From Mycoemilia scoparia (Eukaryota > Kickxellomycota > Kickxellomycetes > Kickxellales > Kickxellaceae): a stretch of 64,000 nt of DNA. The stretch covers positions 1 through 64,000 of the forward strand of contig JANBPU010000045.1 of the NCBI GenBank assembly GCA_027575805.1. The letters are read 5' to 3'. Of this stretch, positions 12,067-50,007 are shown piece after piece (position 1 is the stretch's first letter; each line of letters begins with the position of its first letter). The notes beneath the pieces were generated by a model, which saw only the letters and a program-made list of their open reading frames with translations, ran no database searches and was not told where the DNA came from. The position numbers and the translations under genes were made by a program.

Positions 12067-13542
12067 TTTATAAAAATTTCCAGTAAAAGCGAATGGATAT
12101 GTGTATGTGTGCGAGTTTGCTGTCCGGCGACAAGTAACGACGAGATCGGCAAGGCTTTAGGCTACCTGGGAGAGCAGAGGCAAAGGAAGGTTGAGATAAG
12201 CCCAAGTGGCAGACAGATAGAGCCAGAGAAAATATCTGAGACAGAAAGAAAATAGGGATGGAAAAGCTGGAGTGGTGGTGGGACCAGTAGCAGCTTATAA
12301 GCCAGATCTTTTAAATGTTCTGACAAATCAAAACGATGGCAAGGACGAGGGCTATTGGATTTTCGTTTGTGATGCAATGATTCAGTCGGCTTAAAGACGT
12401 GGAGAGCCTGGCAGGGGTGAGATTTGTGGGATACAAAAGGCTGAGTTTTTAGACTGGCAGTCGGCCATTTATAAACTTTTCACTTGACCTCTCTGTGACC
12501 CGATGGCGCAATCATCCGACAAGTATGGCCAATTCCCGACCCGCATATCCTCATTAGCATCTGGTTAAGAGTGACTCTTGCAGTATAGTTGCCATGCAAA
12601 GGCACGCCTATCCCAGGCTAAGCGCTTGGTGGTATCCAACATAGCAGACCCCACGCGGTGTAACCAATTAATAAGCTCCTTAAAGGCACCCTTATACCCA
12701 ACATGCTCTAATTATAGGTTGTAGAGTCCACAGAGCCAGGGTTCTAGAGCCAAGAACTGCAGTAGTTTACAACAGCAGCAGCTTGCATTTCATACGCCCT
12801 ATGCATGGAGCTTTTTTGCCTTTCATTCCCGAATCCTTGAGACTGTAAATGGCTCTTTGGAATTTGGACACCAGCTGGGCAGCTGATTTGGCTATCGATC
12901 TACCAACGCGCTCCTGGCTTCATTATCTCGACATCTCTTTAGAAAAAGAACCCCAACTTTGCGCTGATCGTCGCACTCTTTACCACCAAATTTGTGGAAA
13001 ATCTTATTTTTCGATCCACTGGTTTAGGACTTATGAAACACAGTGAAAAATCCAAAAACCAAGTTTCGATCAAATCAAATTACTGCAAGTCAGCTCTCAT
13101 CATCATCATCACACACATTCATAACATCAAAGTAATGCTTGCTTGTGTTGTTTGGTGAGGAGCACGATTGTGTACAACTTTTATTTAGCTTTGTTTTAAC
13201 CTTGAGACTTGGTTACCACCACCACAGAGTCAGTCTCTCAAAAAGCGCTACGTGTTGCCTTCGCAACGCAAGAAATACAGTGTGCTTTCTTCCTAATTCT
13301 CTATTGTTATTGCCAATCGCCGAAACCATTTAATTTTGACATGCCAACGTGCATGTGTCTCTACGTATATATTTTGCACCCGATATCAGCTACGTGCTAG
13401 CAGACAATTTTTGGTAAACCCGACAATATATTTCGTTAGACATACAGTTGATAAACCGAGATGCAACGGAGAAAGGTATAGTATATAGCAGGGCTATGTA
13501 TTTTGAGCATACAATGTATATATATATATATATACACAAATT
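12067..13542. promoter_or_regulatory. Divergent promoter region of GSH1 and the SZT2-like gene
   Basis: A 1.5-kb region without a supportable gene. It contains a TGACTC half-site at about 12570, a CAT trinucleotide patch near 13097 and an alternating TA tract near 13517-13532 just before the SZT2-like start. A short ATG-initiated exon at about 13461 might belong to the SZT2-like gene. Short open frames here have no family features. Confidence 0.45.
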
Positions 13543-16500
13543 ATGCCAAAATGCTTACTAAATATCCTTATGTATTTATCTGTGATAAAGTCTCAGAACA
13601 ACGAGCCTAAGGGCACAGACGTTCAGTGTGCGATCCTGACGCTGCCTTCAACGCCATATATGCGGCGTGCCGATTTCACGATATGGCTTCTAGACCTTTT
13701 GTACAAACCGAGCACTCTGCAAGAGATTCAGGTAAGCCGCAATGATACTACAACACAATTAGCACTGTTACTACGCCGCCCAGCAAATTTTTCAGGCAAT
13801 TCCCTAATGCGCTTTTGATATAAATTCCCTAGGGAGACAACGTTAGCGTGATTGATCTTATTCCAGAGACCAAGATACCCAGCTACATGAGCAGAAAGAG
13901 TAACACAGCATCAAAGGTCAATTCGCATTCTGGGTCGCTGGAAAGCCTTCCAGCGCTTGCCGAAATGCTTGATCGTAAATACATATTCACAGAGAACACA
14001 ACCTACCATATCCTACATGACCAATATAAAGTTGTGTTTGTATTGGATGCAAGCCAAAGCATGTACACGCTTGACTCGGACACAAACAAACTTTTAATTG
14101 ACATCAGTCTTGAGACCTTGGAAAAGTGCTTGCGAGGGATGGCCCAATCCGCACGGATTCGTAGTCCGCCAGGGCCAACGTACACAGAGTTCAAGCCTAG
14201 TATATGTATCAGTGTTATGGCATACAATCCCCGCTGGGACCTCGAACCCAGCCTGCATTCCAACCGCTCAAAGTTCCACTACTGTCATACGCTTTTGCAC
14301 TGCGCATGGCTAAACTATCCGTCGATTCCAGACATGATGAATATGATCCGCCAAAGATTAAGGGAGTTTGAGGAGCTCATACGAAGAGAGTCTGAAAAGA
14401 TAAGCGAATCCCTTCAATGTGCCAGCCAAGAGAGTTCAGCGGAAGCTGGCAACAGCAAAGACTCTGAAACTAGAAGCAGCGATGTACCCAACACTAACCA
14501 AGCCGAAGTTCTCGATATCGATTCCACAGAGCCGGCCCTTATACATTGTTTGCAATTGGGCGATTACACTTTGAGACTCTTGCCCGAGAATTGTGCTTCG
14601 TCGCTGGTCTTTATTACTGATGGCGTTATGCGCTCCAATTTCAGTGTCGGTAATGTTTTCGAGTCGGCCAGTAGGCTAGTTCGCCACGATACAAGATTCA
14701 CTATAATCCAGGTTGGTGGGGGTGGGGGATTCAACCCATCCGCAAACTTTGGCTATGTTGTAGATAATGAGCTCCTGAGATACGCAGCCGCCGCGTTGTC
14801 AGGCAGGATGGTCTACTCGAGCGATTTTCCCGAGAATGTTGCAAAGAACCAGGTCAATTTTTACCACGAATGCTTCCTTATAAGGGAGTTCAAGTACACA
14901 AAGAACCAGTCTATTAACCGATATCACTATGTACATCCCGGCCCAATGCGAATAAGCGATACTCCTAGAGAGGTGGCTGCCTCAAGCCAAGAAGAGCACC
15001 CATGGGAAGGTGCCAGCTCCTCAAACTATGGCTTCCCCTGGGATGCATCATCATCTCCACTAAAGGTAGAGACTACCTCAGTAAACTATGACCAATATTT
15101 TTTACCCATCGGACTTAACCTAATAATTGAGCGCCGAATATCCGAAGGTTTCACTTTGAGATCCATTTCTATAAAGTCAAAGGGCTCGTCCCCACTAGAG
15201 AGAATAAAAATTACTCTCGAGCTCCCATGGCATCAAAATGTTACTATTCAATACAAGATCACTAGTTTCTACAGCTACTCTCCGACATTTACTACAGATA
15301 AGACTCGTAAGCAGAGCAATGCTGAGGATCATAGCGAGATGGTCGATATTTTTAAGGGCAATGATGATCGGGAGCATGGTGATAAAAATTCCACTGAGAA
15401 GCAAATCAATGAGGGTGAGCCAATAAAAAACACTGTGCTGCTGGAACCGCAGGTTGGAAGCATAATGGAGAGGTCTCAGTGCGTAGAAAATAATATAAAG
15501 ATAAATGTGTCTGCATACTCGGTCTTTGCCCACATGTTTATGCAGCAGCGCCCCGATATAAAGGGAGATTATCCTATTATAAAAAAGGTTCGTGAGATCC
15601 ACAAGTTCCTTAGACAGCTTAGGAGTAGAGACTCCATTCTTGAAAGCCTTTACACGAATCCGTTCCCTCGGTCCTTTATAAAAAACCGACAGGGCACAGA
15701 CTCAAGTAGATCCTCGCCACAGCAGCTTTCTATATTTGCCGCCCCTTCGAGCAAGAAGACGTCCGTCTTTAGCAATGCCGAAACGCGGAGACAAGATTGG
15801 TCAGAATACCAGAATCAGGTCTTTGGAGTTGCAAAGCAATTGTATCCAAATGAATCCAGTCCCGATACGAGGGTTTCTGGATATCGCCATGTCACAACAT
15901 TACTTATTCGCTCCAGTGCTTTCAAGCATTACATGGACAGGCTGAGCATCGAGTTCATGCGCAATTTTGTCTATTCCTTGATAAGAGAATTCTGTGAAGG
16001 CTTTTTCGATCAGGAAAACTGGGTTTCATGGGATTCGAATAATTTTACTTTCTTTCCCACATCTTTTCGGCTTCACCGGGACACTCCTGCATTTACCATT
16101 GTTTCCTGGGAGAGAGTGACAGATTGGACTGCCCGAATAACCATTTCTTTGTATAATACGAATCCATATGCAAGAGAGCAGGTCATAAAGAGCTTTTCAA
16201 ACCAGATTAATGATTTCCGCTCACGAAGCACAAATAACCCTTACAGCGAAAGGTTGATGGTACAGGCCGTGCGTCCTCTCCACCTGCTCCCAATTAACAC
16301 CAACAAACACACCATCAACCCCCAAAACATATTCGGCATTGGTGACCTGGACTCAGTAAACACAGAGTTTCTTGAGTGGGTGTGGGAATATAAACCAAAA
16401 CCCAACAATATAGCTGCAGAGATAGCCGATCCAAAGAATCGGACTGAGGCTCTTGAAGCACTAAAAAGAATCGCTACTGCTCTCTATAGGAACAAACTGA

Positions 16501-19500
16501 GGAACGAGTTTTCTTTGGTATATGCGACGAGACCCAACTGGGGGAAAAACACAGACCCATTTTCTACACCTGGATACCTTGAGTCGGATATAGAAACCCA
16601 GCTGGATATCAATAGTGTTGTGTCATTCTATCAAGAGATCTACAGCCAAGACAATGAGTGTTTACCGGTTGCTTGCTACTACTCAGTTATCATAGACCCA
16701 GAAAATAGCTGTGTTCGATCGAGGGTATGGTGTGAACCAAACTCACCAAATCTTCTTCACTTTATATTCCAGAGTGAGAGACAGTCTTGTGCATCGACGA
16801 TTACTTTCTTCAAAATACTCCGTCCAATGTGGAATATTGAGCTCAAGTATACATCGTCTCCAAATAACGTTGTTACCACGATCAATTTGTATTCACCAAT
16901 GTCCATCATCAATATGGCCCGTTTTATGCTGAGACAGCTACGCACACCCCTTATGACACCTAGTTACCCTGTAGTATACAGAGCAGACAGCTCGGAATCT
17001 GTAGAGTACGATATTCCTGCTCCTGAGCCTGGTACCGTCATCTCTCACCCTAAATCATCGCATCCTTTGCCAGACATCGCAAAGAAGGGAGTTTCATTTA
17101 TAGCTGAAAAGGAAGAAATATTGCGAATCAAAGCCGCAACTGTCTCTCTTGCCACTCACCTCAAAAAATACCTATTTTGCGAATACAATCCGCTGCTGCA
17201 TTCTAAGATGAAGCCCAGTTTTTATGCATTCGAACGGGAGCCAGATTATACTGAGCTCTGGTTAACTACGGGTGACTTTTCACAGGTAGTATTTAGGTCC
17301 TTCTTGGAGGAAGCCCTATTTGAATATAGTGATGCAGTTTCAATCCCGCTTGAAAGATTCCACAAATTCCAATTTTCTGACAAAATAATGAGTGACCTAA
17401 AGGAGCTTGAGCCCAACTTAAGGAAAGCAGCTCTGCCCCCCAATGATCTTGATACCAAGCCTTTGCTTGATAAGTGGTACGTTCGTCGTTTGGAGAAAAA
17501 GAACACATTCCTTTACATTGGGTTCCCACACCTTATAACCGAGATTGGTACCAAGAGCGAACCTAATTCCGAGCTCTCTAACTGTGGAGATGAAATGAGC
17601 AATGTATCGGAAAAGGAGATCGATCAGTCTGCTCCTGTAGACAATGTCCAGAATGAAGAAGGCGCAGAGTGTAGCGAAGTCTTGAAGTCTCCAACTGAAC
17701 TTGAGCAGGATGCGCAAAAAGCGGACTTATCTGCCAACGACTTTCAGAGCCCAGATTGTGAAGAAATTGAGACAATGCAGATCCAAGCTGCTGGTATTGA
17801 AGATCGATCTACTTTGTCAGATGACAATTCTGGCAGGGATTGTAGCTTGGATATCGACCTAACTGGCACAACAACTACAGATGGTCTATTCGACGATTCC
17901 CAACGACAGGATCCCAATAAAACCTTCCAAAACTACGTATTTGTCTTTGAGTGTGGTTTTGACAGTGAAGACCTTCGCAATCAAAGTGTATTTGAGCAAC
18001 CACTTACCAATCGTGCTAACCACAAGATGCAGCTTCACCTGAAGAGTATGGCATACCCTCAGAATCGTTATGACGGAGGTGCGGCGTATACAGGATGTAT
18101 CTCAATGACGGATTGCGCCTTACCGTTTTCCACAGAGGCCCACACAGAGCTCATAAAGTTGGAAGATATATATGCAAAATCGTTTGCCCGCTCAGTTTAC
18201 TTTGGCTTGATGATGGGTAGAAAACCCACCACAGTGGATATACGTGATGCTCTCAGCCCTAGTAGACTGAAAAAGAATACTGTAACCAAAGACATTACAA
18301 TATTCTTGCAAAGTCAAGATACTATATACAGATCTCGCTGGTCCTCTATGCAAAGGAAACTTAGAAGTGAGTTTGAGGCTGTTACCTCGCAATTCTTTTC
18401 TAGGGTGCCCATGGTTCATGAAAATGGGCAATACTACTACTGTTACACTAAAGACTTCAAATCTTGGAGAACTCCACTCAAGATGGAGTTTTGCCAGACA
18501 CCTTTGTATGTATACTTTCAGTGTACAGTCAAAAATATTAATACTGAAGATGGCATTGAAGATATGGTTACATTCCCATTACACGAACTACCACTCTCGT
18601 TGTCTGAACTAGTAACAAAGGCAGGGTTTAATACCAGCGATACTGATCAGAAATTTGAATCTAGCTCACGAATCAAGGTATATCTTCACATGAACTACCT
18701 CCACTACTTTTGGACCAGAGATTCGCAAGCTAAGCCAACTGGACAAAGCACGCGAATTTCAGAGATAAAAGGGTTTGGGGCAACATCTAACTCTGGGCAA
18801 CTTGCTTGTATCCCTGAAACTCAAGCACCATTTGAACAAGATGAAGCCTTGGTCACCCCTGACGCAATATCTGTTACCCACCAGGATTTGCTCCAACGGT
18901 TCCATAAGGGGATCATAAGATTCTTCAACCGCAGATCCATAAGCACTTTGTTTGACTTTGAGCCGGTAACTCCATATTTGCTCGACGAAGTGTGGAAAAT
19001 GATGACCGATTCGACTGACAAGGACATTGTATCTAACAGCAAAGAATTTGAAGAACACAGTTTCTCGCTGCAGTTTTCTGCTATTGGTCCGAATACTACT
19101 GCTGGTATTCGCTCTTTAATAAACGAAGTGATAAAAGAGCTTAATGGGACTTCGTGCTTCTTTTCCTCCTTTACACATGTGGGTGATGTGTTGCATGTTA
19201 AGGAATTGATTCCAAGTGATGATGCTTTCTCCCCACTGAATTTCGTAAAGTCAAAGCAGCAATCCCAGACCATGGTCAGCCAAGACAAAAATGGTAGCCC
19301 CTCAGCACCATCTCCTTCTCCAAAAGACACGCCAAACAACCAAAAGGACCCATTATGGATTATTTTGAAGCCAGACTTCGTTAATAGCAAGATGCTTTGT
19401 GCTTTTTATTCGCCTCAGCGAATGAAACAGTCAAAGCGCGCTTTAACTGCCAAAGCCATCAGAGCTCTGGTCATGCAGGCCCGAGATACCATCATTACTC

Positions 19501-22500
19501 GCCACTTGTTAGCACGATTTGCTGAAACCCGCGAATTTGACTTTAACATTACATTGCACCAGCTGCCTGATGAAAGCCAAATCCATAGTGCCACCCACAA
19601 CAGGTTCAATCAAAACTTGGTTCCATATAGTCGCTTTCCTGGGGATCCCTACGACAATACAACATCTTCTGTTTCATATGTCGATCAGGATGATCAATAC
19701 CGTTTCCATTGTTCAGAGATCTTTAGCCACAAGTTCTGTTTACATCGAAGATTAAACCCTCAGAAGGCACTGTCTGTGGTCGTTGAGAGAACTTTCGGCA
19801 ACAACAAGGTTAAAAACTGTCCAAACATGTTTGTTTTTAAGGTCGATGGATGCGTGTTTTACATTACTCTGACTTGTGATACTGGTCACCCTGATTCAGG
19901 AAGCACCGTCCCGATGGCTCCACCTAACACTGCAATACTACCTCATAAGGACACTTCTATGGCGACGCCGATACAACCAGTCATCCCAACCATTGTGCAT
20001 GGTGCAGGATCTACTGACCAGAGTGGTATATACTCACCACATCATCCAGATCCAGCTTTAGCAAACTTCAAAATCCAAGGATCTCGTATAGATCAAAAGC
20101 CAAGCATCAATACTATCCGCAGCGAGATGCATCTTGTAAAGCCAGGAATTATGCTGACCACAACAGCTTCAGCTCCAAGCTCCCCTGTTCTTGGAGGCGC
20201 CGCATTCACTACAAGCGTTGAGTACCCAGGTCTGCCTGCTCATAAAAAAGAGCCCTCACCCCAATTCATGCCAACTATATCTGCCCGCGGCTCGGCCGAA
20301 TCTTCTCCAAAAACTACATACCATAGCTATTCGCCTGCACTAATGAAGTCTACGAACTCGGTCTCTCCTCATAGGCATTGGAATGCGGTTGGTGGCCGGC
20401 ATCGCAACAGGCCATCTGTATTTTCCCCGCATGTAGAGTCAACTCCTCCACCACCATCACATCCTCAGCCACAGCCACCAGCACCTACTTTGACTATGGC
20501 TAGTTTGTCACCACAGTATGCTGCACTATCTCAATCAACACATTCTTTACCTTTTGGCTCCATTATAACCACCGAGATAGCAAATCCTCCTGTCTACTCC
20601 ACGGATGCTTTTTCCCAGGGTCCCTTGGTTTCTCCCAAGCCAGTGGATGCATCAACGATGTCTATGGCCTCGTCTGCTTTCCTAACCACGACCCCACATC
20701 TGAATATTCGCCCGCACTTTGGTGCGGTAGAAAATCCAAAACCAACCCAGCTGACACCATACAATGTGATGGTGTCCCATACAAGTACTATGTATGGTGG
20801 GCAATATCATGATACAAAGGGGTTGGATGCTAGCCCACAAAGCACTGCCCAAGATACTAGCCCCCGAAGCTATACAAAGTCTCACCAAAGCATTCCCTCA
20901 ATAATGCTCCGTGTTTACTGCATTGACCCGATAAGCAAGGAAACCCTCAGCCAGCTGGTTGACACAATAAATGGCCAGGCAATAATGCATGTCATCTTGC
21001 CTCACATAGCAACCACGTTGACTAGACAAATTAAACTCAACGAAGATGATTTGCAATTCCTATTTCCTGATAGGTACTCAAATCCCACTAGGAACAAGCC
21101 ATGGGTCATATCCCACCCAATTCCCTCATTCGTTTCGAATGTTGAAAAGCTGCTCTACCATTATCGAAACTCGATGCTGGCGAGATTTTCTCAACTAAAG
21201 AAGTCTCGTCACCTCATCCCTGCTCTTATCAAGGCAGGGATGGCTTTGAACGACGACCAGGACATTACGGATTTTTTCCCAGGATGTGATGAGGAAATCA
21301 TGCCGCTTGATGAGCTTACTTTCTACTATACTGATCACTTGAACACTCAAAGTGGAAGAAAGAGGTTGATTCTGGACCAGGGGATTGCTTCAATAGTTTC
21401 GTGTCCTATAAATTTGGACGGAAAGATATGCCGCTCTATGAAACTTTGTTCAGTTTCCGACAAATCGACTTCCAAAGCTGACGACGGCTCTTGCAAATGC
21501 ACTACACCTAATAAAAACTTTGTTGGCAGTGTCGAGGACTTTATTTCTAATATCTATGGACCAAACTGTTTGATAGATGAAGACTGGTCAAAGTTCCCAA
21601 GGCCATGTCAGTGGCACCTAGAAGAGTGCAAGAAGAAATGCCTAATTGGTCTTATCTCTGTGAACATTTGGCCAGTAGGATTAGTCAAAAAGGATAAAGT
21701 GATGGAAATAATCCAAGATCGTTGGTCTGAGTCTCTAACTAAATATTTGGCACAGGAGGTTATGTCACCGATGTTAGCACATTTGACGATATCAAGTCTA
21801 GAGGAAAGGGGCTTTAGGCTTTCTAGATCATTTACTGATGACACCCGACATTTGGCAGGGAGCGACAAGGTGCTTCCATGCTGGGCGCCAAAATATATTA
21901 ATCGCAATGACATCGAGTTCCCTTGGGATCAGATAGGCCCTTGTGGCTCAGCTGTGGATGGCCCATCTTTGAAATGGCTTCACTTAACGTCCTGTAGACT
22001 ATCAGTAGCAAAGGGCGAGCACTTCAAGGCATTGGAAATACCTTTGCGGGGGGACCGTAATATAAATTGCAGTAATGTTTCCTTTGATCTAGAAGAGCTA
22101 CTTCATAGCCTAAGTAAAGAATTTACTGTAACTACCCACAAAATATTTGAGGATGCTGATGGTAAACCTCCAACCAAAAAGCAGGATCTTGCTGATGACC
22201 TGATATCAGATATCCCTGGTGAAGTGACAGAATGTAGTAGCAATTCACCAAAATGCACTGACCATATAGTAACTGGTATTATCTATTACGGAAAGCAGCA
22301 GTCGGGAAGCGCTGATACCCCAGTGCCACATGGAAAAGAGATCTCATCTACCAGCAGCGTACACAATTTCTCACACAACAATAAAGGTCAGAGAGCCTCA
22401 TCTACTTGTGGCACCGCAGGTAGCCATACTGGTCCGCTTACGGGTCTGGGGCTTGACCCTGGGCCCAAGCCTCAAGGCGATATTTGTAAGACTCCACAAA

Positions 22501-23297
22501 TACCTCCAATGCAAGCTAGCAGCAGCGGCCAGGGCATTGGAGAGCATTCTGCGTATAACGCACTGCCGGTCACAGCCAGCCGCATCACTCAACTGCCAAA
22601 CTTACAGCCCCAAATTGGATTATCTCATGAGCCCCACTCGTCACTACAAGAACGAGGAATACAAGCCAGAAGGTCCTCTGTGGACGTTACTAGTATGGGT
22701 GAAATGTCGAGAGTTCACAGTCATGTTTCTACTCCCAATATCCTCACCAGCAGTGGCGGAAACAGTCATTCTGGGAGCCCAGCACCAGATTCTGTCAATG
22801 CCTATGGAGGCAGTCCCATTGATACACAGGTGGCAAGACCTACCGTTGTGCCTGTTCGCCGCCCGCTCATTAAAAATGGACCGCCATCTGGGCTATCTTA
22901 CACTCCAACAATCCGTGCCGCCCAACCATCGTCTAGGCATTTCGATGGAAGTCCTTCTCCGGTGATCCCATCATTATCAGGGGATGGGCAAAAAGCTCGT
23001 GGTTCGTATACAATGGGGAATACAAGGTTGTCTATCGAGCCGGATTTGTCTTCTATCAAAAAGAGATACTCTATTCCTGATGCATCGCATTCAAACACAT
23101 CAACACCGCCCATCAACTTTGGGGATATAAACAATAACGAAAAGACAACGCTGTGGGCCTGGGTTTCTATTTGGCTCCAGAAGGACAGGCTCAATATCGT
23201 GGCTAACAACATCCCAGACTTTATCTGGACAGTCTTAACCGATTCCCTTTTGGCCAAATACTCAGAAAAATCCTCCACAAGGACTCCCCAAAACTAA
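13543..23297 (+). CDS. SZT2: SZT2-like giant protein (KICSTOR scaffold family)
   Basis: Two exons (13543-13731 and 13833-23297) give about 3,217 residues. SZT2 is known as the scaffold of the animal KICSTOR complex, which holds GATOR1 on the lysosome to restrain TORC1 under amino-acid limitation. The N-terminus has a YMRRADFTIWLLD block and then a von-Willebrand-like strand FVLDASQSMYTLD near residue 127. A second block, LVFITDGVMRSNFSVGN, near residue 320 is followed by IIQVGGG and a LLRYAAAALSGRMVYSSDF segment. This order and spacing match the SZT2 N-terminus. Long Ser/Pro-rich stretches separate conserved blocks near residues 2100-2440 and 2900-3130. The start is uncertain: a tiny upstream exon with an ATG at about 13461, spliced to 13592, is possible. 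Family assignment is good, but the function in a fungus is inference. Confidence 0.78.
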
Positions 23298-23645
23298 CTT
23301 CTGGTCTCTCTGTAACTATTACACAAACATTCCGTACTTTTAATATTAATATTTTTCTTTCATTTCCTACTATGTAATGTTTTTTCTTAATAAAAATAGC
23401 TTTGCAACAATCCAATACTATTTTTCAACTCGGGTAAAAGTCGTTTAAATGCGTAATTTAGAATCATGGTTGTGCCATGGCGTGGAGGTGTCATAAACCA
23501 ATTTCAAAACCTTTGATAGTAGTTTATAAAAGACATAAAGGCAACTAAAATAAGCATGACCATGAAAAATAAAGATAGCCAATAAACGAAGCCGTTTAAA
23601 GATAAAAAACAAAGAAAAGGTATAAAATTCATGACCAAAGTTCGT
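23298..23645. other. Convergent 3' intergenic region
   Basis: AT-rich spacer between the SZT2-like gene and TFG1. It has AATAAA near 23387 for the plus strand. No gene is recognisable. Confidence 0.6.
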
Positions 23646-25589
23646 TTACCGCTGATAGGCATTCTTAAGGGTTAGTATACCGCCAGTGGTAAGCTTGGAT
23701 ACCTTCTTTACAATACCAAGGAAGTGCTTCTTGCTTTCATCACCACCAATCCTGCTGCGGAAGTGATTGATGAGATCTGTTGACCTAAGTTCAGGGTGGC
23801 CACGAATGAATCTGATCACCTCCTCCTCCCTAACGGGCTTTTGCTCCTTTGTGCCACTGGTCTTCCTCTTTTCAGATTTGGCTGTCTTTTGACTTGGGCC
23901 ATCCTTGCCCTGGGTCATGCTAGCGACACGCTTGCGCTTGGCGCTTTGTTTGTTTCCAGATGATGCTGATGACTTGGGTTTGGACCCAGATAAAGATGGT
24001 GTTCCAGGAGACTGTGACCCAGCAGAGGTCGGGGATGATGCGCCAGTCGGGGAATCGGTGTGTAATTTTGATCTGTGTTTTGAGTGAGCGTGGGATTGAG
24101 ACTCCTGTGTAGATTTGCTACCTCCACTTTCGCCCTTTTTGTCGGGGTTGGAGGAGTCATTGCCGTTGTCTTTCTTGGCGCTTGGTGACTCGTCTTCCTC
24201 AAACTCGCCATCCGAGTCGCTCTCGATGTCAGATTTATCCAAATAGGGGTTATCGTCCGAATCAGATCCGTAATTTTTGTTCTGCTCTCTTTTGAACATG
24301 AGTTTTTTCATCTCCCTGCCACTTGAGCCAAGTTTGCTTTCATCTGCATCCTCAAACTCTTCATCGTCAGAATTGCCAAGACCAACTCCTCCAGTGTTTG
24401 GTTTGGTGTCCTTTTCTGCCTCATCGCCAGCAAATAAATCTTCGGGCATTTCCTCGTCGTCTTCAAATACTTCATCAAAGTCAACCTCTTCAATATCACC
24501 GTGCTTTGTATTGCGGGTGCTACTACGCTTCTTGCTGGAGCCAGCACCACCATCGACATCATCATCAAACTCATCATATTCGGCAGTATATTCAACAAGC
24601 GATGAGTTAGCATCGCCACCATTACCGAAGGGCTTCCTGTCCTCTTCGAACGCAAGATCCTCGGGCTTAACATCTTGAGGCCCATTGTTCTTGTCTTCCT
24701 TTTCCTTGTTTTTCATTAACCAACGGGATGTCTGTTCTGCCTTTGCTCCTTTGGTGGCCTTTATGTATTCCTCCTCAGCCTCCTCAATAGTCAGGGTTCT
24801 ATACTTTAACTTCTGTCTAAAGTTATACCATCTATCAACGGGAACCACTTTAAACCCGTCGTCAATAAGCACAAACAAGAAATAGTTGGATTTTTGGCCA
24901 CCTTCAAGTGTTCCTGTCCAACTGTTCTGTGCATCATAATCTTCAAACATCCAAGGGCGCGATTCTTCTATATTTAGACGACGCTGATTCTCATCAGCAA
25001 AGAACACCTGCTTTGTTCTCTTTTTAAATAGCATTTGCTTATTCCGAGTGGCTCCACCAAATGGCGCTATAATAGAAGTATCGGCCTTAGTCTGAACTCC
25101 CCTTCCTCCACGAGCCGCCTTTCCACCAGCTTGAGTTCCGGCAGCATTTCCAGCTGGTGTACTTGTACCAGCCGATGTGCCAGCGGTCTGCTGCTTGTCA
25201 GAAGAACTCTGTGATTGTGCATCATCCTTTGCAGAAGCTGCCTGTGAGCCCCTTTCGCGACGCTTCAGCTTCAATGGCGGTGTAAATGTGGTCAAATCAA
25301 CTGGCTTATCATGGGTTAGGCGCATAATGTTATGAGTTCTGATCTTGTTAACGGAAACTAACCGATAGTCATTATATTCAGGCATTGGTTGCGTAGACTG
25401 CTGCCCTATGCCTTCAGAATCATTGGGAAGCCCCTTTTCTTTTTTTACGTTCTTTATTAAAGGGGCTTGTGCTTCCTTTATAGGCTGGGTTTTCACTGGT
25501 GGTTTTTTGGGCGGTATTTTAACTGGCCTCTTCCCACTTCTCCTGAATAAAGTGCTGGTTGGGTTACCCTTTTTCGGGTCTGGGGCCAT
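23646..25589 (-). CDS. TFG1: TFIIF alpha subunit (RAP74/Tfg1)
   Basis: A single-exon 647-residue protein. TFIIF binds RNA polymerase II, stabilises the preinitiation complex and stimulates elongation. The N-terminal dimerisation region is seen in EYNDYRLVSVNKIRTHNIMR, in the FKKRTKQVFFAD block and in RPWMFEDYDAQNSWTGTLEG, which pairs with TFIIF beta. A highly acidic and Ser-rich charged middle follows (residues about 290-530). The C-terminus (EEVIRFIRGHPELRSTDLI to GGILTLKNAYQR) is the winged-helix domain that binds the Fcp1 phosphatase in relatives. The order is typical of RAP74. It converges with the SZT2-like gene and diverges from MDM35. Confidence 0.93.
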   Translation of the reverse strand: MAPDPKKGNPTSTLFRRSGKRPVKIPPKKPPVKTQPIKEAQAPLIKNVKKEKGLPNDSEGIGQQSTQPMPEYNDYRLVSVNKIRTHNIMRLTHDKPVDLTTFTPPLKLKRRERGSQAASAKDDAQSQSSSDKQQTAGTSAGTSTPAGNAAGTQAGGKAARGGRGVQTKADTSIIAPFGGATRNKQMLFKKRTKQVFFADENQRRLNIEESRPWMFEDYDAQNSWTGTLEGGQKSNYFLFVLIDDGFKVVPVDRWYNFRQKLKYRTLTIEEAEEEYIKATKGAKAEQTSRWLMKNKEKEDKNNGPQDVKPEDLAFEEDRKPFGNGGDANSSLVEYTAEYDEFDDDVDGGAGSSKKRSSTRNTKHGDIEEVDFDEVFEDDEEMPEDLFAGDEAEKDTKPNTGGVGLGNSDDEEFEDADESKLGSSGREMKKLMFKREQNKNYGSDSDDNPYLDKSDIESDSDGEFEEDESPSAKKDNGNDSSNPDKKGESGGSKSTQESQSHAHSKHRSKLHTDSPTGASSPTSAGSQSPGTPSLSGSKPKSSASSGNKQSAKRKRVASMTQGKDGPSQKTAKSEKRKTSGTKEQKPVREEEVIRFIRGHPELRSTDLINHFRSRIGGDESKKHFLGIVKKVSKLTTGGILTLKNAYQR

Positions 25590-27974: not shown

Positions 27975-30598
27975 CTAATAAAATGATGGATCTCGGTTTT
28001 CGCGATCAGACATGAGATTAGAATAGGGTATATATTTTCGGAGAAGTTCATTTTCAGCTGTCAATCTTTCAACTTCCTTTCTTAGTTGTCTTGCTTCTTC
28101 ACTGACCTTATTCAGTAACGACAGCTGTTGCTAAAAGAAATAAAGGTGAAGTGGTTGGATACAATTGTAAAAACTATGAATGTGATGTTAGGTATATGCT
28201 TGTACATAATGTTATTGATGAAACTTACCACCTGTTCGTTGTTTTGCCGAATTATATCAAGATGAAGGTTCAGCATGTCGTTCCTTAATTGCTGACAGAA
28301 TGGAGAAAGTGAATCTTGGACTGTTTGGCGTATAATGTCAGCCGACAACGAGTTGTGTAGACCAACAGAGGTTGTTTTGGGCTGAACATTAGGGATTTCA
28401 GACACCCTTGTATTATACACTGGCTGAGGGAACGGCGAGGGAGCATCAACGGACACTGGCTCAATATTTTTTAGTGGACCAGCCTTTTCTGTATTTTCTG
28501 GTACTTGAGGCTTGAGCTCTGTATGGGTCTCTTTGACTGCTGGTGCTGGAGTTTTTGGTTGCAGTAGTCTCTGAAGGACGTTAAAAGCAGGTGCCTTTTG
28601 GCTTTGAAGTATCGATGCTGGCTGTCCGGATCTTTTCTGCTCCTTTGGTGTGAAGAGTTCCATAATTGAATCGCCAGCAGACGGAGGAGGCGTCTCAAAC
28701 GTATTAGCTTTCTTTGAAAGCTCAGATTTAGAATCATCATTTTCGTGTTTTACTTCTGGAGAATAGCCAGGGCTAAGGTGGTCTTTTAGAATCTGCTCCG
28801 GAGTCTTTTCATTCTTAAGCTGTCTTGACAAAAAGGATTGGCTACCAGAATCCCTTGCTGGAGAAAACAATTCCATATAGCTACGGTCTTTTTGCAGAAC
28901 AGATTCATTTGGCATATCTTTTGGGACATGCTTATCATTACTGCTAGGAAGCACTTCGGGCTTTGGGTGCTGCAGTGGTGATTTGACATGACTAGTTGGA
29001 ATTGGTGGCCGTGATGAAGATGCAGCGCTGTTTGTATTTAGAGGAACCGGCCTTTTTGTTACTCCGCTCAATGGTAATTTGGGTTGGCGGGAAACAGAAT
29101 CTGCCCTTGAGCCTGTAGAGGCAGACCTCGTAATACCAGATATACTGGGTTTTTTATCCTCAGAAGTGCTTAACGTGTCAGATCCATGAGATGAAGATAC
29201 AGATGCTCTTATAGATCTAGCGCCCATGGGTGCAGTAGTAGATGATGCAAAAGATAGAGATCCAACACTTTTGCCCTTCTCAAGGGTTGCGTTCCAGAAC
29301 GGCTGCTTTGGATTCCTGCTGTCGTATACTCTCGCCTCTCCATCAATCGACCCGACAGCTATCCATCCAAATACCGAATCGCAAGCAATGGAGGTCAGTG
29401 GTGATCCGACATCAGCGAAGAGGCTAGCACCGGACCGCATGGCATCGTCGATTCTGCATATTTTCTTGTCAAGCCCTGAAGAGTAGGCAATGCGTCGCTC
29501 AACGAATGAGTACGATACACCTCTTATAGGTGCATCGTGTGTCGATTTCCATGCTCTGACTGGTACTTGACCAGGGCGGCTGGTATCAAATAGTTGAAGG
29601 CTTCCATCATCAGCTCCAGCAAGAATTGATGCCCGATACCCAGGAGACAAATCCAACGCGTGAATTGGCTACACTCATTCGAGTTGGAAAAATTCAATAT
29701 AAGCAAGGATTTTTTTGATTTAGGTGGAATTGAAGCGCCTCTTACCTGTTTGGATACCAGCTTGTATTCACTTTTAGTTCTCTGCTCTCTGTTGAATAAG
29801 TTAATTTCACCTCCCTTCTCGGCACCTGTAGCTATAAACTTCAGATTCGTGCTTAAAGCCATGCATGATATTGGATACTTCGGCCCCTAAGATAAATCGA
29901 ATGGTAAAATCAGTTAGAGATGGCAACACACCAACGAAGCTGAAAATTTCTAGAAAACACTTGCCTCGTATTTTTCAATAATACGCTGTTTCTTTCGATC
30001 CCAAACAGAAACAGTCATTTCTGAGGAATTTGCTAATAACAATGCATCAGAGTCTTTTCCAAGGAATTTTATATCAGCCAATTTTGTTTCCTGTAATTTA
30101 TAGTCATAAAAAAGAAGTAATATTATTGACATAAGGCCTATTTTCCAGATATAATTTTGAAGATTTTGGACAATATTATGAGGCTGCCTACCGTTTCCAT
30201 ATTCTTCGAAGTTTGAATATAAGTTATATCGTCGCTTTCTAAGTCTACTATTGCGGCCTTTGGTCCCACTCCACCAATTGCCAGCATGTTTCCTATAGTT
30301 AATTAGCGCATTGTTTAGTATCCTGTTACACACAATTACTTTCGAACTCTAACATATACAAGCGCAACTAACCCTTGTCAGATATGCTCACACATTGTGC
30401 TTTGCAAAGCTCAAAGTCTGAATCCTGCGTAGATAGGCAATACTCTGCATGTGGTTCTGATATGTCTTGATGTCTGTCTGAAGCTTGACTTAGTGGCCTG
30501 GAATTTCGAATACTCTTTGGTCGAGCTGTCTGGCCAATTGGGCCATCCACATTCCACAGCTTTACAACTGTATCTGCTGCAGCCGTTAATAGTACCAT
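27975..30598 (-). CDS. NEDD1: NEDD1 (GCP-WD), gamma-tubulin ring complex targeting factor
   Basis: Six exons (30598-30373, 30292-30192, 30090-29965, 29886-29746, 29668-28229, 28130-27975) join in phase to 729 residues. The N-terminal half is a WD40 propeller, with VVKLWNVDG, SVWDRKKQRIIEKYE and THDAPIRGVSYS followed by SSGLDKKICRIDD, the NEDD1-like blade. A Ser/Pro-rich linker follows. The C-terminus is a short helical domain, LRNDMLNLHLDIIRQNNEQV, leading to a coiled coil that ends ERLTAENELLRKYI. In animals and plants this C-terminal region binds the gamma-tubulin complex and sends it to spindle poles and microtubules. Intron 3 fits a GC-AG boundary (GAG|GCAAGT). The gene is divergent from ALG3 across 275 bp. 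The call is strong from combined propeller and tail. Confidence 0.85.
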
Positions 30599-33406: not shown

Positions 33407-35615
33407 ATGGCCAGACCCTCCAGAGAAAGCAGCGCAGGCGTTTCGGACCAGGCTCGTCAGCGCCAAAATCGTCGCGATGAGGTAAACCTTAGTCTAAATG
33501 CTAATGACACTGTTTGAGACTCGTATGGGCATTCAGCCGGCCAATAAACTATATTAACATGTGCACCCTCACATATTTTAGGCAATTAGAAAGAAGGCAG
33601 AACTTGATATCAACAAAAAGAAGAGCCAAAATCGCCAGAACCGAAGTGGGCCACCGGGAAGCGGCAACAGTGACTTGCCCACTACTCCAAACAGCGCAGA
33701 TCGTAGGCCACGCGGCTATAACCAACAGAGGAAATATGCCCCAGGAACCGTGGCAGCGCTCCGACCTGCAGTTGCTTTGACCGTTCCTGATGACATAAAC
33801 ATTGTTGAAGCCGCACAGCTGATGGCAGCCAAGAGAGCTGACTCTGTGTTGGTTGTTGGCGAGGACGAGAGGTTGTCTGGAATTTTCACAGCAAAAGATG
33901 TTGCCTTCCGTGTAGTGGCTGAAGGCCTTAATGCAAGGTCAACGCTGGTAAGAGATATCGCAACACCGAACCCATTGTGCGTTACCACAGACACCCAGGC
34001 CACCGACGCCCTAAATACCATGGTCGACAGAGGATTCCGCCACCTGCCTGTTTGCAACGATGAAGGCGATGTCGTTGGTCTGCTGGATGTAATCAAATGC
34101 ATGTACGAGGCCCTTGACAAGATGGACAGAGCTTACCAGACATCAAAGGCGCTTTATGAGGCACTGGAGGGCGTTGAGAAGGAGTGGAGTGTGAACCCAT
34201 CTCACCTTGTATCATTTGTCGACTCAATGCGTGACCAAATGTCGTGCCCAACCCTTGGGTCTCTCATTGATGGAAGCGCACCAATCATGGTTTCTCCAAG
34301 AACAAATGTTCAAGAAATTGCAAGGCTTATGAGGGCAAACAGAACCACGGCCAGCTTGGTCATGGAGGAGAACGGAGATCGAATTGCGGGAATATTTACT
34401 AGCAAGGATCTTGTCCTGCGAGTAGTTGCAGCTGGTCTAAACCCCTCGAACTGCAGTGTAGTCCGTGTGATGACCCCTCACCCTGACACAGTACCACCTG
34501 AAACCTCTATCATTGATGCCCTCAAGCGCATGTACGAGCGTCATTATCTCAACTTACCTGTCGTCAGCCCGGACAGCGAAATTCTCGGCGTCATAGATGT
34601 CCTCAGGCTTTGCTATGCCACCCTTGAGCAAATGAAGACCATTCAGAGGAAGAAACAGGAAGAGCATGGTGGCGGCAGTAGCCAAGTTGGTGCCGAGAGT
34701 GATATAAATGGTGGTCCAATGTGGTCCCGATTCTTCAACGGTACATTACCTGCTGAGCTTGACAATCGCTCTGATACTGGCCACTCCGTTGGCCCCCAGG
34801 GATCTTATCTCGAAAGGTACTCGAACTCACAAATCCCAGAAGTATTCCCCAATGACTCTGCCTCGGTTGCTGAGGACATAAGATCCGCTGTTAATTCTCG
34901 TGTTGGTGAGCAAGAGGCCTTCCCTCCTGGCTTTACCTCTCCAACATACCCCAGTGGAATGCCAATTCCTGCTCACATGCTTACCAATACTGGAAGCCAC
35001 CCTCAATCTGCAACTGCTGCTTCTCAGCTCACCAGCAGCATGAACAAGCCTCCACCCAATGTTCCCGAAGGTCATTATACCTTCAAGTTCAAGTCCCCCA
35101 GTGGAAAGACTCATAGATTCACTTCGCCTAAGGACGATATTGGCAAGCTTCGCAGTACCTTGATAAAGTTAACTACCCAAGACGGAACACAAAATGTTGA
35201 AGAGCTGATCGAAAAGGTAGGAATTGCTTACATTGACGATGAGGGCGATGCTGTTAACCTTTCCACCACCGAGGATCTTCAGCATGCTGTCCAAACTGCT
35301 GAGCAGCTATTCACCTACCGTGTGTCCATACAATTCAATCCCCAGGCCTTAGATCAGTATACCAAAGCCAAAGAAAAGGCGGCCAAGGAAGCACAGGAGG
35401 AAGAACAAAGGAAAAAGGAAGCAGCCTCTGCTGCTGCTGCTGCTGCTGCTGCTAGCCAACCTCCTGCCGCACCCACACCCAAAGCCGTTGATAACGTTGT
35501 TAATATAGGACCATTCGGAGTTCCTGAAAAATATCTCCTACCCACAGCACTGGGTGGTGGATTTGCAGCCGCATTGGTTGTTGTCTTTATTGCTTCAAGG
35601 CTTGCCAAGAACTAG
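33407..35615 (+). CDS. Four-CBS-domain, PB1-domain, tail-anchored membrane protein
   Basis: Two exons (33407-33481 and 33582-35615) give 702 residues. After a basic, low-complexity N-terminus come two CBS pairs, with segments such as DSVLVVGEDERLSGIFTAKD, FRHLPVCNDEGDVVGLLDV, then SLVMEENGDRIAGIFTSKD and LNLPVVSPDSEILGVIDV. A PB1 domain follows (YTFKFKSPSGKTHRFTSP to LYYTYRV-like strand near residue 580). Then comes an Ala tract encoded by eight GCT codons. The last 25 residues, LLPTALGGGFAAALVVVFIA plus a short basic tail, form a single C-terminal membrane anchor. This layout is known in fungi as the Mug70-type family, where CBS pairs may sense adenine nucleotides and PB1 mediates pairing with other PB1 proteins. 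The specific function is unknown. Confidence 0.85.
35430..35453 (+). repeat. (GCT)8 codon repeat encoding poly-Ala
   Basis: Eight GCT codons in frame between the PB1 domain and the membrane anchor of the CBS protein. It is likely a flexible linker and prone to length variation. Confidence 0.9.
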
Positions 35616-45096: not shown

Positions 45097-48000
45097 CTAA
45101 AATGTATTCAGACGACTACGCGGTAGGGGAGAAAAGTTACGCTGGACAGGCCTGGCTAGTGGAGACACAGAAGGCGAGGCAAATGGAGACCCTATACCGA
45201 AGTTTCCAGAGTTTTTCTGACTATTGCTGCTTCCTCGTCTGAGCTCGGGGAATAGCTCAAGTACCAAATCATCGAGAACGTACAGCACAAGTTGGAGGTT
45301 AAGCCTGCGATGCTGCAGGACTTCAAGAAGCCTTGTGGCTCCCTTCTCAGCATTCTTTCGGCCCACCATCGATCCAAGCACATTTGGCAGATAGAATAAC
45401 AGCTTCTGCTGGGCCTTTTGATATGTATCGCTTCTCTCACTATCCGTGCGTGGCACTGGCGCTGTGAACTTCTGCTGATGTGGCCAAAAGATGTTTGTCA
45501 CCTCTGTAAGATGGTTTGCCAACTGAGATTCACTGACCAGTGATGTCACAATGTCTTTGACCCTGCGCTCCATAGCACCTCCAAAAATATGGCGGAGAAG
45601 GATATTTATTGCCTGTCTGCGCAGCCAGTTGTTCTTATCTTTGAGTTCAAATATCTCTATGAATAGGTCACAGAGAGGCTCACTGAGGTTAGCATAGGTT
45701 GGTGTGGACACCTCTACTGAGCCAGCTGTTGAGACATAAGATGAAAGGAAGCTCAACGAGTCCGAGTAGCCATCATCAGGAGGCGACGTCGCGGATTGTG
45801 AATCTGTCTGCGCATTTTCTGCATCTGGATGCAATACATCAGGATCTCCCTTGGCAATCTGGGCGCTGAGCTGCTTTGTGATCTTGTCTAGCATGGTACC
45901 ATCGCCCGTAATGTCGTTAATATCACGGCTTATAGACTCGTAGAGTTGGCCCATCCATGGGTCGTTGTTATCAAGTGTAGCAGGGTTAGCTGTAGCTGAT
46001 GCAGGATTCTGAATGTCGGGCAAGGTCTCCTGCTTTGGTGGTGGATGCTGAGACAAAAAGAGTCTGAGTGGCACAGACCGACACGCATCATTATGTTGGA
46101 TGAGGCGATTGAGGTATGATTCAAGTGCAGCTCTCCGAGATTCGATATGGGATTTTTTAAACTTTAAAAAAGGGTTCTTTGCTGGGAACTCATTGTGTTT
46201 CATCATTTCGGGGAATAGGGCCTTCATTTTCTCATGCAGCTCCAAAAACTCTCTGTACCTGTGTGTTATGATCCAGCTGTACTTGATCTTTCCGTTAATG
46301 TCAGTCTTTAAAACTTCGATGCTGTATTGAACATACTTTTTCCCGCTTTTTCTTGTGATTAGTTCTGGTGATCTACCTTTTAGGCCCGGTGATCTCCTTA
46401 TTCCTAAAAGAGTTGGACTTCCGCTAAGGAATGATGGTCTACGCAGTGGGTTAATAGCATCCTTCATTCGGGACCCAATCTGAGACCTGATAGAGGTACT
46501 CGGATTCCGTTGCTTGTCTTTAGGTGGTATAATTGGGGCTGAGATAGATGTCCTTGGTATGCGTATCAGTGTTCTTGACGGTACAAGTTTATTCTCAAGT
46601 GCTTGTGTTTCATACTCCTTGCGCTGGTTCAGAAGCTGCTTGGTTTCTTTGATCAATTGGACTTGACTTGCCTTCAAAATCCTCTGCTCATTTTCTTGCC
46701 CCTTACTTTCTACACGGACCAGCAATGCATTTACAATGGCTATTTGCTGGCGTTTGGTGTCTATAAGTGCATTAAGACCAAAAGCCCTTTCTGAAAGGAA
46801 TAGATCGCCAAGCGAGGCAACTTGAACAGATTTTTGTGCAGTTTTATAGCTTGAATGGCTATAACTATCCATGCTGCTCCCTATATCTAAATCAGATACA
46901 TCACTGTTGTCATCGTATACAGATAAGTCCTCTTCATCAGATATATCCTCTTCCTCAAGCAACTCAGTCTTGCTCTTCAGTGAGATTTGTGTCGAATCTG
47001 CCAAAGTTGGCTCAAAATCTTTAGATAGGCTACGAGCATTAGTCTTGACAGGACCATCTTTTCCAGAAAGTGGTTCCAGGGATTTTAGCCCAAGAGCTCG
47101 CAGATCATTTGTACTTCTTGCTCTGCCTTTATCCATAGAGCTGAAGGCTTTACTAATACCAAATGTGCGACTTGTTTTCGGTGTATAGAATAGGGCCTGA
47201 TCAGATGTGGAGTCACCAGGTATTCTTGGGGGTGCGGATGTCCCGCTGGATTCCATATTCTCATTTTTGTGTAGCATACCATCAAGGACTGCTTCAACTG
47301 CATCAACCTGATGAGAAGACAATAAATCCGAATCTTGGATATTGGCCGCATCAGTGGCATCTTGTGGGAAATCCTCCAGGTCCTGTTTATCACTCTGGGC
47401 TAAATCCTTAGGTTCTTCACCAATTGGTTGTATTTTTGGTTCAGCATCACCTTGGGACCCTGACTTAAATAATGAACTCCCCCAATTTCCGAACATATCC
47501 AAATAGGAGTGGTAACCTCCCTGGGCCAAAGTGTCATCTCTAGGAACATTATCACCAGATGCAAGTTTCCCACTGACTTGAGGGTGTATATCATTGGCTA
47601 TGGGCTCTCCGCTACCACGAGGATCGTCCTCAGAAATTGTATATAGCGCATTGCTAACCTTCGGGACCATTGATGATTCTCTTGTCAAGGTGCGGGCTGG
47701 CGCTGAGGTGTTGGTTCCAGCGGGATTCGCCATCGAATCAGCTATACTATTTGCCGATGACCCAATGTTGCTTTGGTCAAGGGATATATTCGTCTGGACT
47801 GACTGAGTGCTTCCTGGTGCAAATAACTGGTTTTGAACATGAGTCTTGTGGGATGTCATGACATAGGTGCTAAGGAAGCGGCGGTATAAAGTGCTTCTCA
47901 AAAAGTTGGGGTACTCTCGCTGCTCTATTTTGTGGAATAGGTCATTCTGGACTCGGCACATTAAATCAAAAGATTTGTCCAAAACTTCCTGGCCAGCTTT

Positions 48001-50007
48001 TTCGAGATCAATATCAAGAACATTAGACATCCTATATGGCTTTAAAAGCTTTTGTACAGGGCTGATAACATCTTCGCTGGCGCCAAGTTCGTCTACACGC
48101 AAAGTGAAATACATTTTCCAAAGAGAATTGATGACTGTGGGTGTGATGATGGGGACACCATTATTCGGTGCCTTCTTAAGCCCCTCAATGTTAAGCCAGT
48201 ATTCCAGAATAAAGCTTTTGCCAATCAAATCCATGTACTCGGCAAATGCCGATAACGCCGAAACATCGGTGATTATTTCAATAAGACTGAACTGTGGGGG
48301 AGATATTGTGACCGGATCATCGCGTTGCTCGTAGTAGACAGAATGCCGAGATGTTTTTGTTGTGTTAACAGTATTGTTCCGGGGAATTGGACCACCATCT
48401 ACACTATATGATAGTCTAATCGGCACTTGTGCCCCTTGGTTCTGACTTAGTAGTCTTATACGCTTCTCTGCCACCTTCTTGGCAACATACAATCTGTTTA
48501 TATAGAATATCATATCTTTTACGTTTTCGCCATGAACAATATCGCCCTTGTTCTTTCCCATGATCAGAATACGCTTCTTCCTTATCTGGGAAACAATATT
48601 TTCGCTGATCGATGTTAGCATGCCAAGATCTTGGCAAGTCTTTATCATCTCGATGAATTCTTCGAATGTCCGTGTGGGCTGAAAACCTTTTCCATCGCCC
48701 AAGTCACCTTCTTGTGAGCCAATACCTCCTGACTGCAGGTCCAATGCCTGCCTCAGCTTGGTAACCATTCTTTGCTCCTCAATGATCCGTGTTAGCTGCA
48801 TATCTATCAGTCTGTTTGAGGTATCCGGGTCTATTACCGCTCCTACTACAGATGTCAAAAGAGTGGATGCCAATATCTCACGTATAATAGTTTTGTGCGG
48901 GCCAAAATTGAGTGATTCCTTTGCAATTATAAGCTCCAAAAGCTCATCGACAATAGATCTGAGATAATTCGCAATGGCTATTTTCTCTTGGTCCAGCATC
49001 TCTTCTTTGGATTCGCCGCTTTTTGACCTGGGCTTTGGCTTTTCGCTGTGATTAGGATGACTGTTTTTCTCACTTGAAGCGACCGATGCGCCTGGTGGAT
49101 TGCTAATAAGGCTACGAAGAGCTGGATGCTGTCTCAATTTGAAGTAATTGTCAATTATAAGCAAATTTGTGCTTTCTTGCTCTGCAGCAGATGTAGCTTC
49201 ACTATTTCCTGCATTAACAGTCTTTGAGCGAGGCCTTTTTCCACCCTTACTGGAAGACAAAGATAGACCTTGGATGGTATTGCTTCTTCCTGAGCGCGTA
49301 ACGGGGCTGGTATTTTCAGTGGCTGCCTTTTCGGCTCTTCGATAGTCATGAAGGTGCCTGGAAATAGCAGGCACTATGCGTGCCATAAAGAAGTGTGACA
49401 AGTCAAGCTTCTCCACCCGAACAACAACATGTCTCAAAATGGATGCAATCTCTGCTTTAACAGATTGTCCGAATGACGGGTCAGCAGATATGGTTCTAAA
49501 CCACGACTGAATAAAGTCGCGAACTACCAGATCCAGCAGGTTTTGCAAAGCCCTCTCAGTGCTAGGCAGGAATGGCAATATTGCCAGCTCGTTGGCAAGC
49601 TCCTCAGGCTCAATGCTCCTATCCATCTTGTCAACCCAGTAGCTTCTGGTGTACTTTGTTGGAAAGAACGAGGAATCAAGGCGTAGCGAACCATCCTTGC
49701 GAGCAAAGTCGAGGACAGGAATCCTTCTGACTGGTGGGGAGGTGCCAAAGCTTCCTATGGAGAATGGATTAGTCCCAGCAACATCGAATAGAACAATGCC
49801 AGGCTTTTTTTCGCCCTCGGACCTTGCGTGGCTGTACGTTGACGGGCCGAGAATTGACAGTCTACGGTGATACCAGTACGATGTGACAATGTTGGTAAAT
49901 AAGAGAACGATGCAGAGAGATGCTACAAGGAAGGGGAATAGCAAAGCATAGGAGAGAATTGACTTCAGCCATAAAGTGGTGACCTCTAATAGCTCTACCG
50001 CAAGCAT
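45097..50007 (-). CDS. MDM1: Mdm1/SNX13-type sorting nexin (PXA-RGS-PX-Nexin_C)
   Basis: A 1,636-residue single-exon protein. Two adjacent hydrophobic stretches near residues 13-45 give an N-terminal ER membrane anchor. A PXA domain follows (about residues 125-395, e.g. ERALQNLLDLVVRDFIQSWF). An RGS fold lies at about 570-712 (LIEIITDVSALSAFAEYMDL to FLRSTLYRRFLST). A PX domain lies at about 1220-1317 (IITHRYREFLELHEKMKALFP), where the Arg-Tyr-Arg pattern fits phosphoinositide binding. A Nexin_C domain follows at about 1433-1590. Known family members tether the ER to the vacuole or lysosome and influence lipid droplets. Two long Ser-rich linkers separate the domains and make this protein longer than yeast Mdm1 (1,127 residues). 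It diverges from BUD6. Confidence 0.92.
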   Translation of the reverse strand: MLAVELLEVTTLWLKSILSYALLFPFLVASLCIVLLFTNIVTSYWYHRRLSILGPSTYSHARSEGEKKPGIVLFDVAGTNPFSIGSFGTSPPVRRIPVLDFARKDGSLRLDSSFFPTKYTRSYWVDKMDRSIEPEELANELAILPFLPSTERALQNLLDLVVRDFIQSWFRTISADPSFGQSVKAEIASILRHVVVRVEKLDLSHFFMARIVPAISRHLHDYRRAEKAATENTSPVTRSGRSNTIQGLSLSSSKGGKRPRSKTVNAGNSEATSAAEQESTNLLIIDNYFKLRQHPALRSLISNPPGASVASSEKNSHPNHSEKPKPRSKSGESKEEMLDQEKIAIANYLRSIVDELLELIIAKESLNFGPHKTIIREILASTLLTSVVGAVIDPDTSNRLIDMQLTRIIEEQRMVTKLRQALDLQSGGIGSQEGDLGDGKGFQPTRTFEEFIEMIKTCQDLGMLTSISENIVSQIRKKRILIMGKNKGDIVHGENVKDMIFYINRLYVAKKVAEKRIRLLSQNQGAQVPIRLSYSVDGGPIPRNNTVNTTKTSRHSVYYEQRDDPVTISPPQFSLIEIITDVSALSAFAEYMDLIGKSFILEYWLNIEGLKKAPNNGVPIITPTVINSLWKMYFTLRVDELGASEDVISPVQKLLKPYRMSNVLDIDLEKAGQEVLDKSFDLMCRVQNDLFHKIEQREYPNFLRSTLYRRFLSTYVMTSHKTHVQNQLFAPGSTQSVQTNISLDQSNIGSSANSIADSMANPAGTNTSAPARTLTRESSMVPKVSNALYTISEDDPRGSGEPIANDIHPQVSGKLASGDNVPRDDTLAQGGYHSYLDMFGNWGSSLFKSGSQGDAEPKIQPIGEEPKDLAQSDKQDLEDFPQDATDAANIQDSDLLSSHQVDAVEAVLDGMLHKNENMESSGTSAPPRIPGDSTSDQALFYTPKTSRTFGISKAFSSMDKGRARSTNDLRALGLKSLEPLSGKDGPVKTNARSLSKDFEPTLADSTQISLKSKTELLEEEDISDEEDLSVYDDNSDVSDLDIGSSMDSYSHSSYKTAQKSVQVASLGDLFLSERAFGLNALIDTKRQQIAIVNALLVRVESKGQENEQRILKASQVQLIKETKQLLNQRKEYETQALENKLVPSRTLIRIPRTSISAPIIPPKDKQRNPSTSIRSQIGSRMKDAINPLRRPSFLSGSPTLLGIRRSPGLKGRSPELITRKSGKKYVQYSIEVLKTDINGKIKYSWIITHRYREFLELHEKMKALFPEMMKHNEFPAKNPFLKFKKSHIESRRAALESYLNRLIQHNDACRSVPLRLFLSQHPPPKQETLPDIQNPASATANPATLDNNDPWMGQLYESISRDINDITGDGTMLDKITKQLSAQIAKGDPDVLHPDAENAQTDSQSATSPPDDGYSDSLSFLSSYVSTAGSVEVSTPTYANLSEPLCDLFIEIFELKDKNNWLRRQAINILLRHIFGGAMERRVKDIVTSLVSESQLANHLTEVTNIFWPHQQKFTAPVPRTDSERSDTYQKAQQKLLFYLPNVLGSMVGRKNAEKGATRLLEVLQHRRLNLQLVLYVLDDLVLELFPELRRGSSNSQKNSGNFGIGSPFASPSVSPLARPVQRNFSPLPRSRLNTF

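Follow-up and report, generated by a model that had tools for sequence, protein, structure and literature searches.

The window analysed here is a stretch of 64,000 nucleotides. It opens a contig of 101 kb, of which it covers the first 64 kb; the assembly comprises 21.2 Mb in 466 contigs. A gene predicted to encode an SZT2 homologue of 3,206 residues occupies positions 13461-23297 of the plus strand in three exons. Splicing of these exons gives exactly, over 3,206 aa, a deposited protein of Mycoemilia scoparia (Kickxellomycota, Kickxellales), here designated P0001, which carries the database names hypothetical protein and VWFA domain-containing protein. The two introns (13476-13590, 115 b, and 13732-13832, 101 b) are both bounded by GT..AG. 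A preliminary description of this DNA had the gene start at 13543. That start does give an open two-exon model; however, the public protein is reproduced exactly by the three-exon model from 13461.

The giant open frame that had been described within 13543..23297 is real. Positions 13833-23297 (+) contain no stop over 3,154 codons, an outcome with a chance probability of about 10^-75 under the stretch's own base composition with bases treated as independent, and the remaining two forward frames across the exon 3 region contain 149 and 230 stops. The motifs reported earlier follow one another in this frame in the order proposed, at coordinates computed from the frame: FVLDASQSMY (14037-14066), ITDGV (14613-14627) and QVGGG (14709-14723). 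The end at 23297 likewise holds for the frame as it stands, all three forward frames downstream closing soon. An AATAAA begins at 23389, between the end of the SZT2 homologue and the next gene, TFIIF-alpha, which lies 348 bases away. The coordinates of the features are collected in Table 1. Tandem repeats were not found within 13400-23700, nor were RNA families or tRNAs detected across the window. Three other frames were recorded in the window: a frame of 646 aa carrying four CBS stretches together with a PB1 domain (33675-35615, +), a 1,636-aa frame of the sorting-nexin type with PXA, RGS, PX and Nexin_C domains (45097-50007, -), and a 514-aa frame with zero Pfam matches at E 1e-4 (28112-29656, -).

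Table 1. Features of the SZT2 homologue and the neighbouring gene (window positions; residues are those of P0001 unless another protein is named)
Feature	Position	Strand	Basis
Exon 1 (MQRRK)	13461..13475	+	Deposited model
Exon 2 (short N-terminal lead)	13591..13731	+	Deposited model
Exon 3, giant open frame (3,154 codons and a stop)	13833..23297	+	ORF and deposited model
VWA-like region and following segment, residues 102-529	13980..15263	+	Insect SZT2 83-460, E 4.7e-11; human SZT2 7.5e-14 over part
Residues 599-1286, conserved with Coemansia P0002	15471..17534	+	blastp 26% identity, E 3.25e-66
SZT2 middle region, residues 1489-2074	18141..19898	+	Insect SZT2 1298-1978, profile E 2.1e-12
Residues 2404-2504, final segment with detectable animal SZT2 counterpart	20886..21188	+	Insect 2035-2132, E 0.014, weak
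Residues 2528-3132, declining aligned fraction and identity to Coemansia	21258..23072	+	Window-by-window comparison
Residues 3133-3199, weak island like P0004 3031-3097	23073..23273	+	Profile E 0.0047-0.019 by query length; marginal
TFIIF-alpha, neighbour gene	23646..25589	-	Pfam PF05793, E 1.2e-22

When P0001 was compared by phmmer with 177,635 distinct PDB sequences, the matches at E <= 1 were human SZT2 chains only (3/3, best E 7.5e-14). The match spans frame residues 46-367, which are protein residues 98-419. No Pfam family was matched by P0001 at E <= 1. When the whole frame served as query in a protein search, the matches included P0001 itself and one Coemansia protein. A two-sequence profile built from P0001 and a Coemansia protein brought together at least six proteins: P0001, four Coemansia homologues (P0002-P0005) and an insect "SZT2-like" protein from Belonocnema kinseyi (P0006). 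That search scored 1,486 candidates, and further SZT2 relatives may exist. The best BLASTP alignment in the retrieval of the insect protein covered 13% of the query. As it was retrieved by a search with two of the same proteins, the insect SZT2 is not an independent discovery.

A five-protein profile (P0001 and the four Coemansia proteins) gave three matches to the insect SZT2, which lie in the same order in both proteins. In control comparisons the reversed insect protein reached a best E of 0.10 (0.12 with a Coemansia-only profile), and four shuffles gave 0.27-0.61. The VWA-like region has the motifs DASQS and TDG in P0001, as against DLSPS and TDG in insect and human SZT2. The best insect match is to residues 1489-2074 and therefore lies outside the VWA segment, where the preliminary description had asked for an alignment as a test of its proposal. 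With the Coemansia-only profile there were five insect matches in order, at E values from 3.1e-7 to 0.014, including one (E 0.0068) in the C-terminal stretch. Direct comparison by blastp of P0001 with the insect protein yields two alignable pieces only, at about 23-25% identity. The two-sequence profile aligned to six human SZT2 segments in PDB in order, of which the first two are weak (E 0.019 and 0.0041) and the other four, including 2158-2214, the human counterpart of P0001 residues 2404-2504, are individually non-significant.

P0001 thus resembles the SZT2 of animal KICSTOR (human PDB 9v0j, 9o5a and 9o5d; insect P0006) in its N-terminal VWA-like region and in the order of its middle regions. 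Its overall size is also close to that of the two animal proteins (3,206 residues versus 3,352 and 3,432). On this comparison of sequences P0001 is an SZT2 homologue, with similarity extending past the VWA segment. The SZT2-type identity first proposed for the giant protein is borne out by the human SZT2 match and the ordered insect matches.

The source database label, VWFA domain-containing protein, invites the view that P0001 is an unrelated VWA-domain protein whose resemblance to SZT2 is confined to that segment. Fold comparison points the same way at first sight. AlphaFold models of the N-terminal and middle regions were made from six-row alignments, and Foldseek with the N-terminal model placed other VWA-containing entries on top, including Ku, Rpn10 and TFIIH. 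None of the 6 matches at E <= 0.001 was KICSTOR, a KICSTOR chain appearing at rank 23 (E 6.3e-3). The middle model had zero matches at E <= 0.001, with KICSTOR chains at E 0.33 and 0.99. Both models are of low quality (mean pLDDT 36.4 and 41.2), so these fold searches were given little weight, and for the same reason the middle domains are without structural support. Against a similarity limited to the VWA segment stand the three ordered matches to insect SZT2, the strongest of them outside that segment, and the absence of any rival family at E <= 1 from Pfam and from PDB sequences. Because the profile matches are ordered, and because the reversed and shuffled controls argue against spurious alignment, we regard the unrelated-protein explanation as refuted, with a barely appreciable residual probability.

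Coemansia belongs to the same phylum as Mycoemilia. The four Coemansia homologues are 4,762-5,297 aa long and are deposited as hypothetical proteins. By blastp, P0001 is 26-34% identical to them in pieces up to residue ~1325 and more weakly similar beyond. In every 200-residue window to ~2530 the identity is 20-39% with 82-99% of columns aligned. Past this residue the aligned columns fall to about half and then to 8-31%, and the percentages beyond Coemansia residue ~2800 (the 8-31% of columns in the full-length alignment) are not counted as homology. P0001 keeps pace with the Coemansia proteins up to ~2530, but they have about 1,670-1,730 extra C-terminal residues (P0004 and P0002), parts of which are well conserved within the genus. 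When two blocks of this tail, selected for their conservation, were combined into 393 columns, the mean column identity across the four proteins was 84% and the identity to the first row 74-75%.

A stretch of the Coemansia tail is common to animal SZT2, with E 0.0021-0.0068 against the insect protein. In PDB its only matches were human SZT2 chains, but at E 0.25-0.79. The C-terminal stretch with the motif H-x-x-SF-x-YDF-x-LR, which SZT2 proteins usually have, is present in Coemansia and absent from P0001, whose frame ends earlier. Relative to animal SZT2, the C-terminal stretch that P0001 lacks lies around human residues 3021-3055. P0001 is filed as SZT2 by descent, independently of the C-terminal stretch. 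From about residue 2800 its composition is poor in hydrophobic residues. Beyond the counterpart of the weak terminal island (Table 1), P0004 runs on for 1,665 residues and P0001 stops. Full-length MAFFT alignments had placed the C-terminus of P0001 at the distal end of the Coemansia proteins; they were set aside in favour of local profile comparison. On the question raised at the outset, whether the fungal SZT2 ends earlier than the animal one, the answer is yes for M. scoparia but no for Coemansia, in which the C-terminal stretch shared with animals is kept. Two PDB entries, 25ge_C and 25gf, hold an SZT2 construct of 1,245 residues, which by its numbering would be a C-terminal fragment of the human protein and which includes the stretch missing in Mycoemilia.

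The C-terminal tail has probably been lost from the M. scoparia SZT2. The assembly was searched with 886 aa of joined P0004 tail pieces and with 393 aa of joined P0005 tail blocks, and both queries returned zero candidates. A contiguous 1,057-aa query from the middle of P0004 served as the control. Its only match was the window gene, recovered as three segments with 27-32% identity, which indicates that the assembly search works at this level of identity; a second SZT2 gene was not seen. An assembly or gene-model artefact, or a tail encoded by its own gene that the assembly lacks, is an unlikely explanation of the short C-terminus. In its favour, the completeness of a 466-contig assembly is uncertain, an empty tail search lacking a known positive proves nothing, and a tail divided among short exons could be missed. 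However, the end of the gene is internal to a 101-kb contig, with an AATAAA ahead of the close neighbouring gene, and the 348 bases to TFIIF-alpha leave no space for the missing stretch. In addition, the tail blocks used as a query are 74-75% identical, as compared with 54-64% pairwise in the windows behind the successful middle query.

The Pfam models of all three GATOR1 subunits match the M. scoparia genome: DEPDC5/IML1 on C201 (E 2.1e-96), NPRL2 on C333 (E 2.0e-23) and NPRL3 on C68 (E 4.4e-27). Rag GTPase family matches were found on C112 and C424, with a weaker one on C465. The match on C424 (L013, 54105-54551) contains a single in-frame TAG that may mark an intron. The DEPDC5/IML1 match (L001, C201:106184-107032) sits within one uninterrupted frame 2,889 codons long; human DEPDC5, at about 1,600 residues, is far below this. 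The NPRL3 matches (L007-L009, C68:143972-146479) fall within an open frame of 2,009 codons, more than three times the length of human NPRL3. M. scoparia may commonly carry large insertions in its GATOR1 subunits.

The partners of SZT2 in animal KICSTOR were not found. No candidates in the assembly were obtained with the models of KICS2 (C12orf66; PF09404), ITFG2 (PF15907) or Sestrin, each of which also matched 0/14 control genomes. These negatives are suggestive only, because the GATOR1 models, which match here, also matched 0/14 control genomes. An approximate human KPTN query gave a 34-residue match on C456 (E 0.003), which is antisense to a 427-aa frame and was taken as chance; the translation of that frame resembles what we take to be a metal peptidase or deacylase. 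A search with human KICS2 for a fungal seed found no fungus among the best 120 of 236 matches, where the placeable named rows are all vertebrate and several rows are nameless. Of the partner genes named at the outset, NPRL2, NPRL3 and DEPDC5 are thus matched by their family models, but in these uncalibrated searches of the M. scoparia genome KICS2 and ITFG2 gave nothing and KPTN no credible match.

In mammals GATOR1 reaches the lysosome through KICSTOR and there inactivates RagA/B and hence TORC1, as set out in PMC12904710 and PMC11836306. The latter (Barua et al. 2025) also describes KICSTOR components including SZT2 in non-Dikarya fungi, a fungal SZT2 as is found here. The scaffold is therefore not new to fungi. 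The earlier proposal of a fungal SZT2/KICSTOR scaffold is supported as to SZT2 homology but not as to novelty, such a scaffold having been reported in 2025 (PMC11836306). Its suggestion that the scaffold is older than animals fits SZT2 homology in a fungus; its further suggestion, that the scaffold still works in some fungi, may hold for P0001. Among the open-licence papers searched, only PMC11836306 has Kickxellomycota and SZT2 together, and only a splicing-factor paper names Mycoemilia scoparia. The main text of PMC11836306 does not contain the words Coemansia or Mycoemilia, and the passages of it that were consulted describe no C-terminally short SZT2. No paper on a short fungal SZT2 appeared among the matches listed in searches of open-licence papers; the C-terminally short form of the M. 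scoparia protein is the aspect not found there.

GATOR1 and Rag are present and SZT2 is constrained, so the likeliest role is the mammalian one, on the vacuole. With the C-terminus reduced and partners undetected, a smaller complex is plausible. We consider it likely that P0001 is a C-terminally reduced SZT2 acting as a GATOR1 scaffold within a reduced KICSTOR. By analogy with animals, SZT2 would hold GATOR1 (DEPDC5-NPRL2-NPRL3) at the vacuolar membrane under nutrient scarcity. The tethered GATOR1 would switch the Rag GTPases off, and with them TORC1. The lineage would have lost the C-terminal stretch kept by Coemansia and animals, with SZT2 probably acting in a reduced KICSTOR. Membrane tethering, GATOR1 binding, the starvation response and the choice of partners are all inferred from the animal system. 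This explanation is weakened by the KICS2, ITFG2, Sestrin and KPTN negatives, by the weak third insect segment (E 0.014), by the absence of a Pfam match to P0001 and by the poor AlphaFold models with their fold searches.

The same gene could truly descend from SZT2 but have ceased to serve GATOR1 and be decaying or repurposed, its tail gone and its partners apparently missing. The diverged C-terminal part, the tail not found in the assembly and the undetected KICS2 and ITFG2 would all agree with this. We nevertheless find it doubtful, since a frame stop-free over 3,154 codons and the identity to Coemansia sustained in each 200-residue window to ~2530 point to continuing constraint, and the GATOR1 and Rag genes are retained. 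A more specific and tentative reading has somewhat less than an even chance. P0001 could be a naturally minimal SZT2, its N-terminal ~2,500 residues constrained alongside a complete GATOR1, and the C-terminal stretch, KICS2, ITFG2 and perhaps KPTN gone.

In people, SZT2 mutations lead to severe epileptic encephalopathy, according to the abstract of PMC8534408. The shortened M. scoparia SZT2 beside the long Coemansia ones amounts to a natural deletion experiment on the parts of the scaffold that are needed. It also joins the published evidence that fungal TORC1 control can be judged from S. cerevisiae, a yeast without KICSTOR, only to a limited extent. If the minimal form is real, it would identify the part of SZT2 that is enough for GATOR1 regulation without the rest of KICSTOR.
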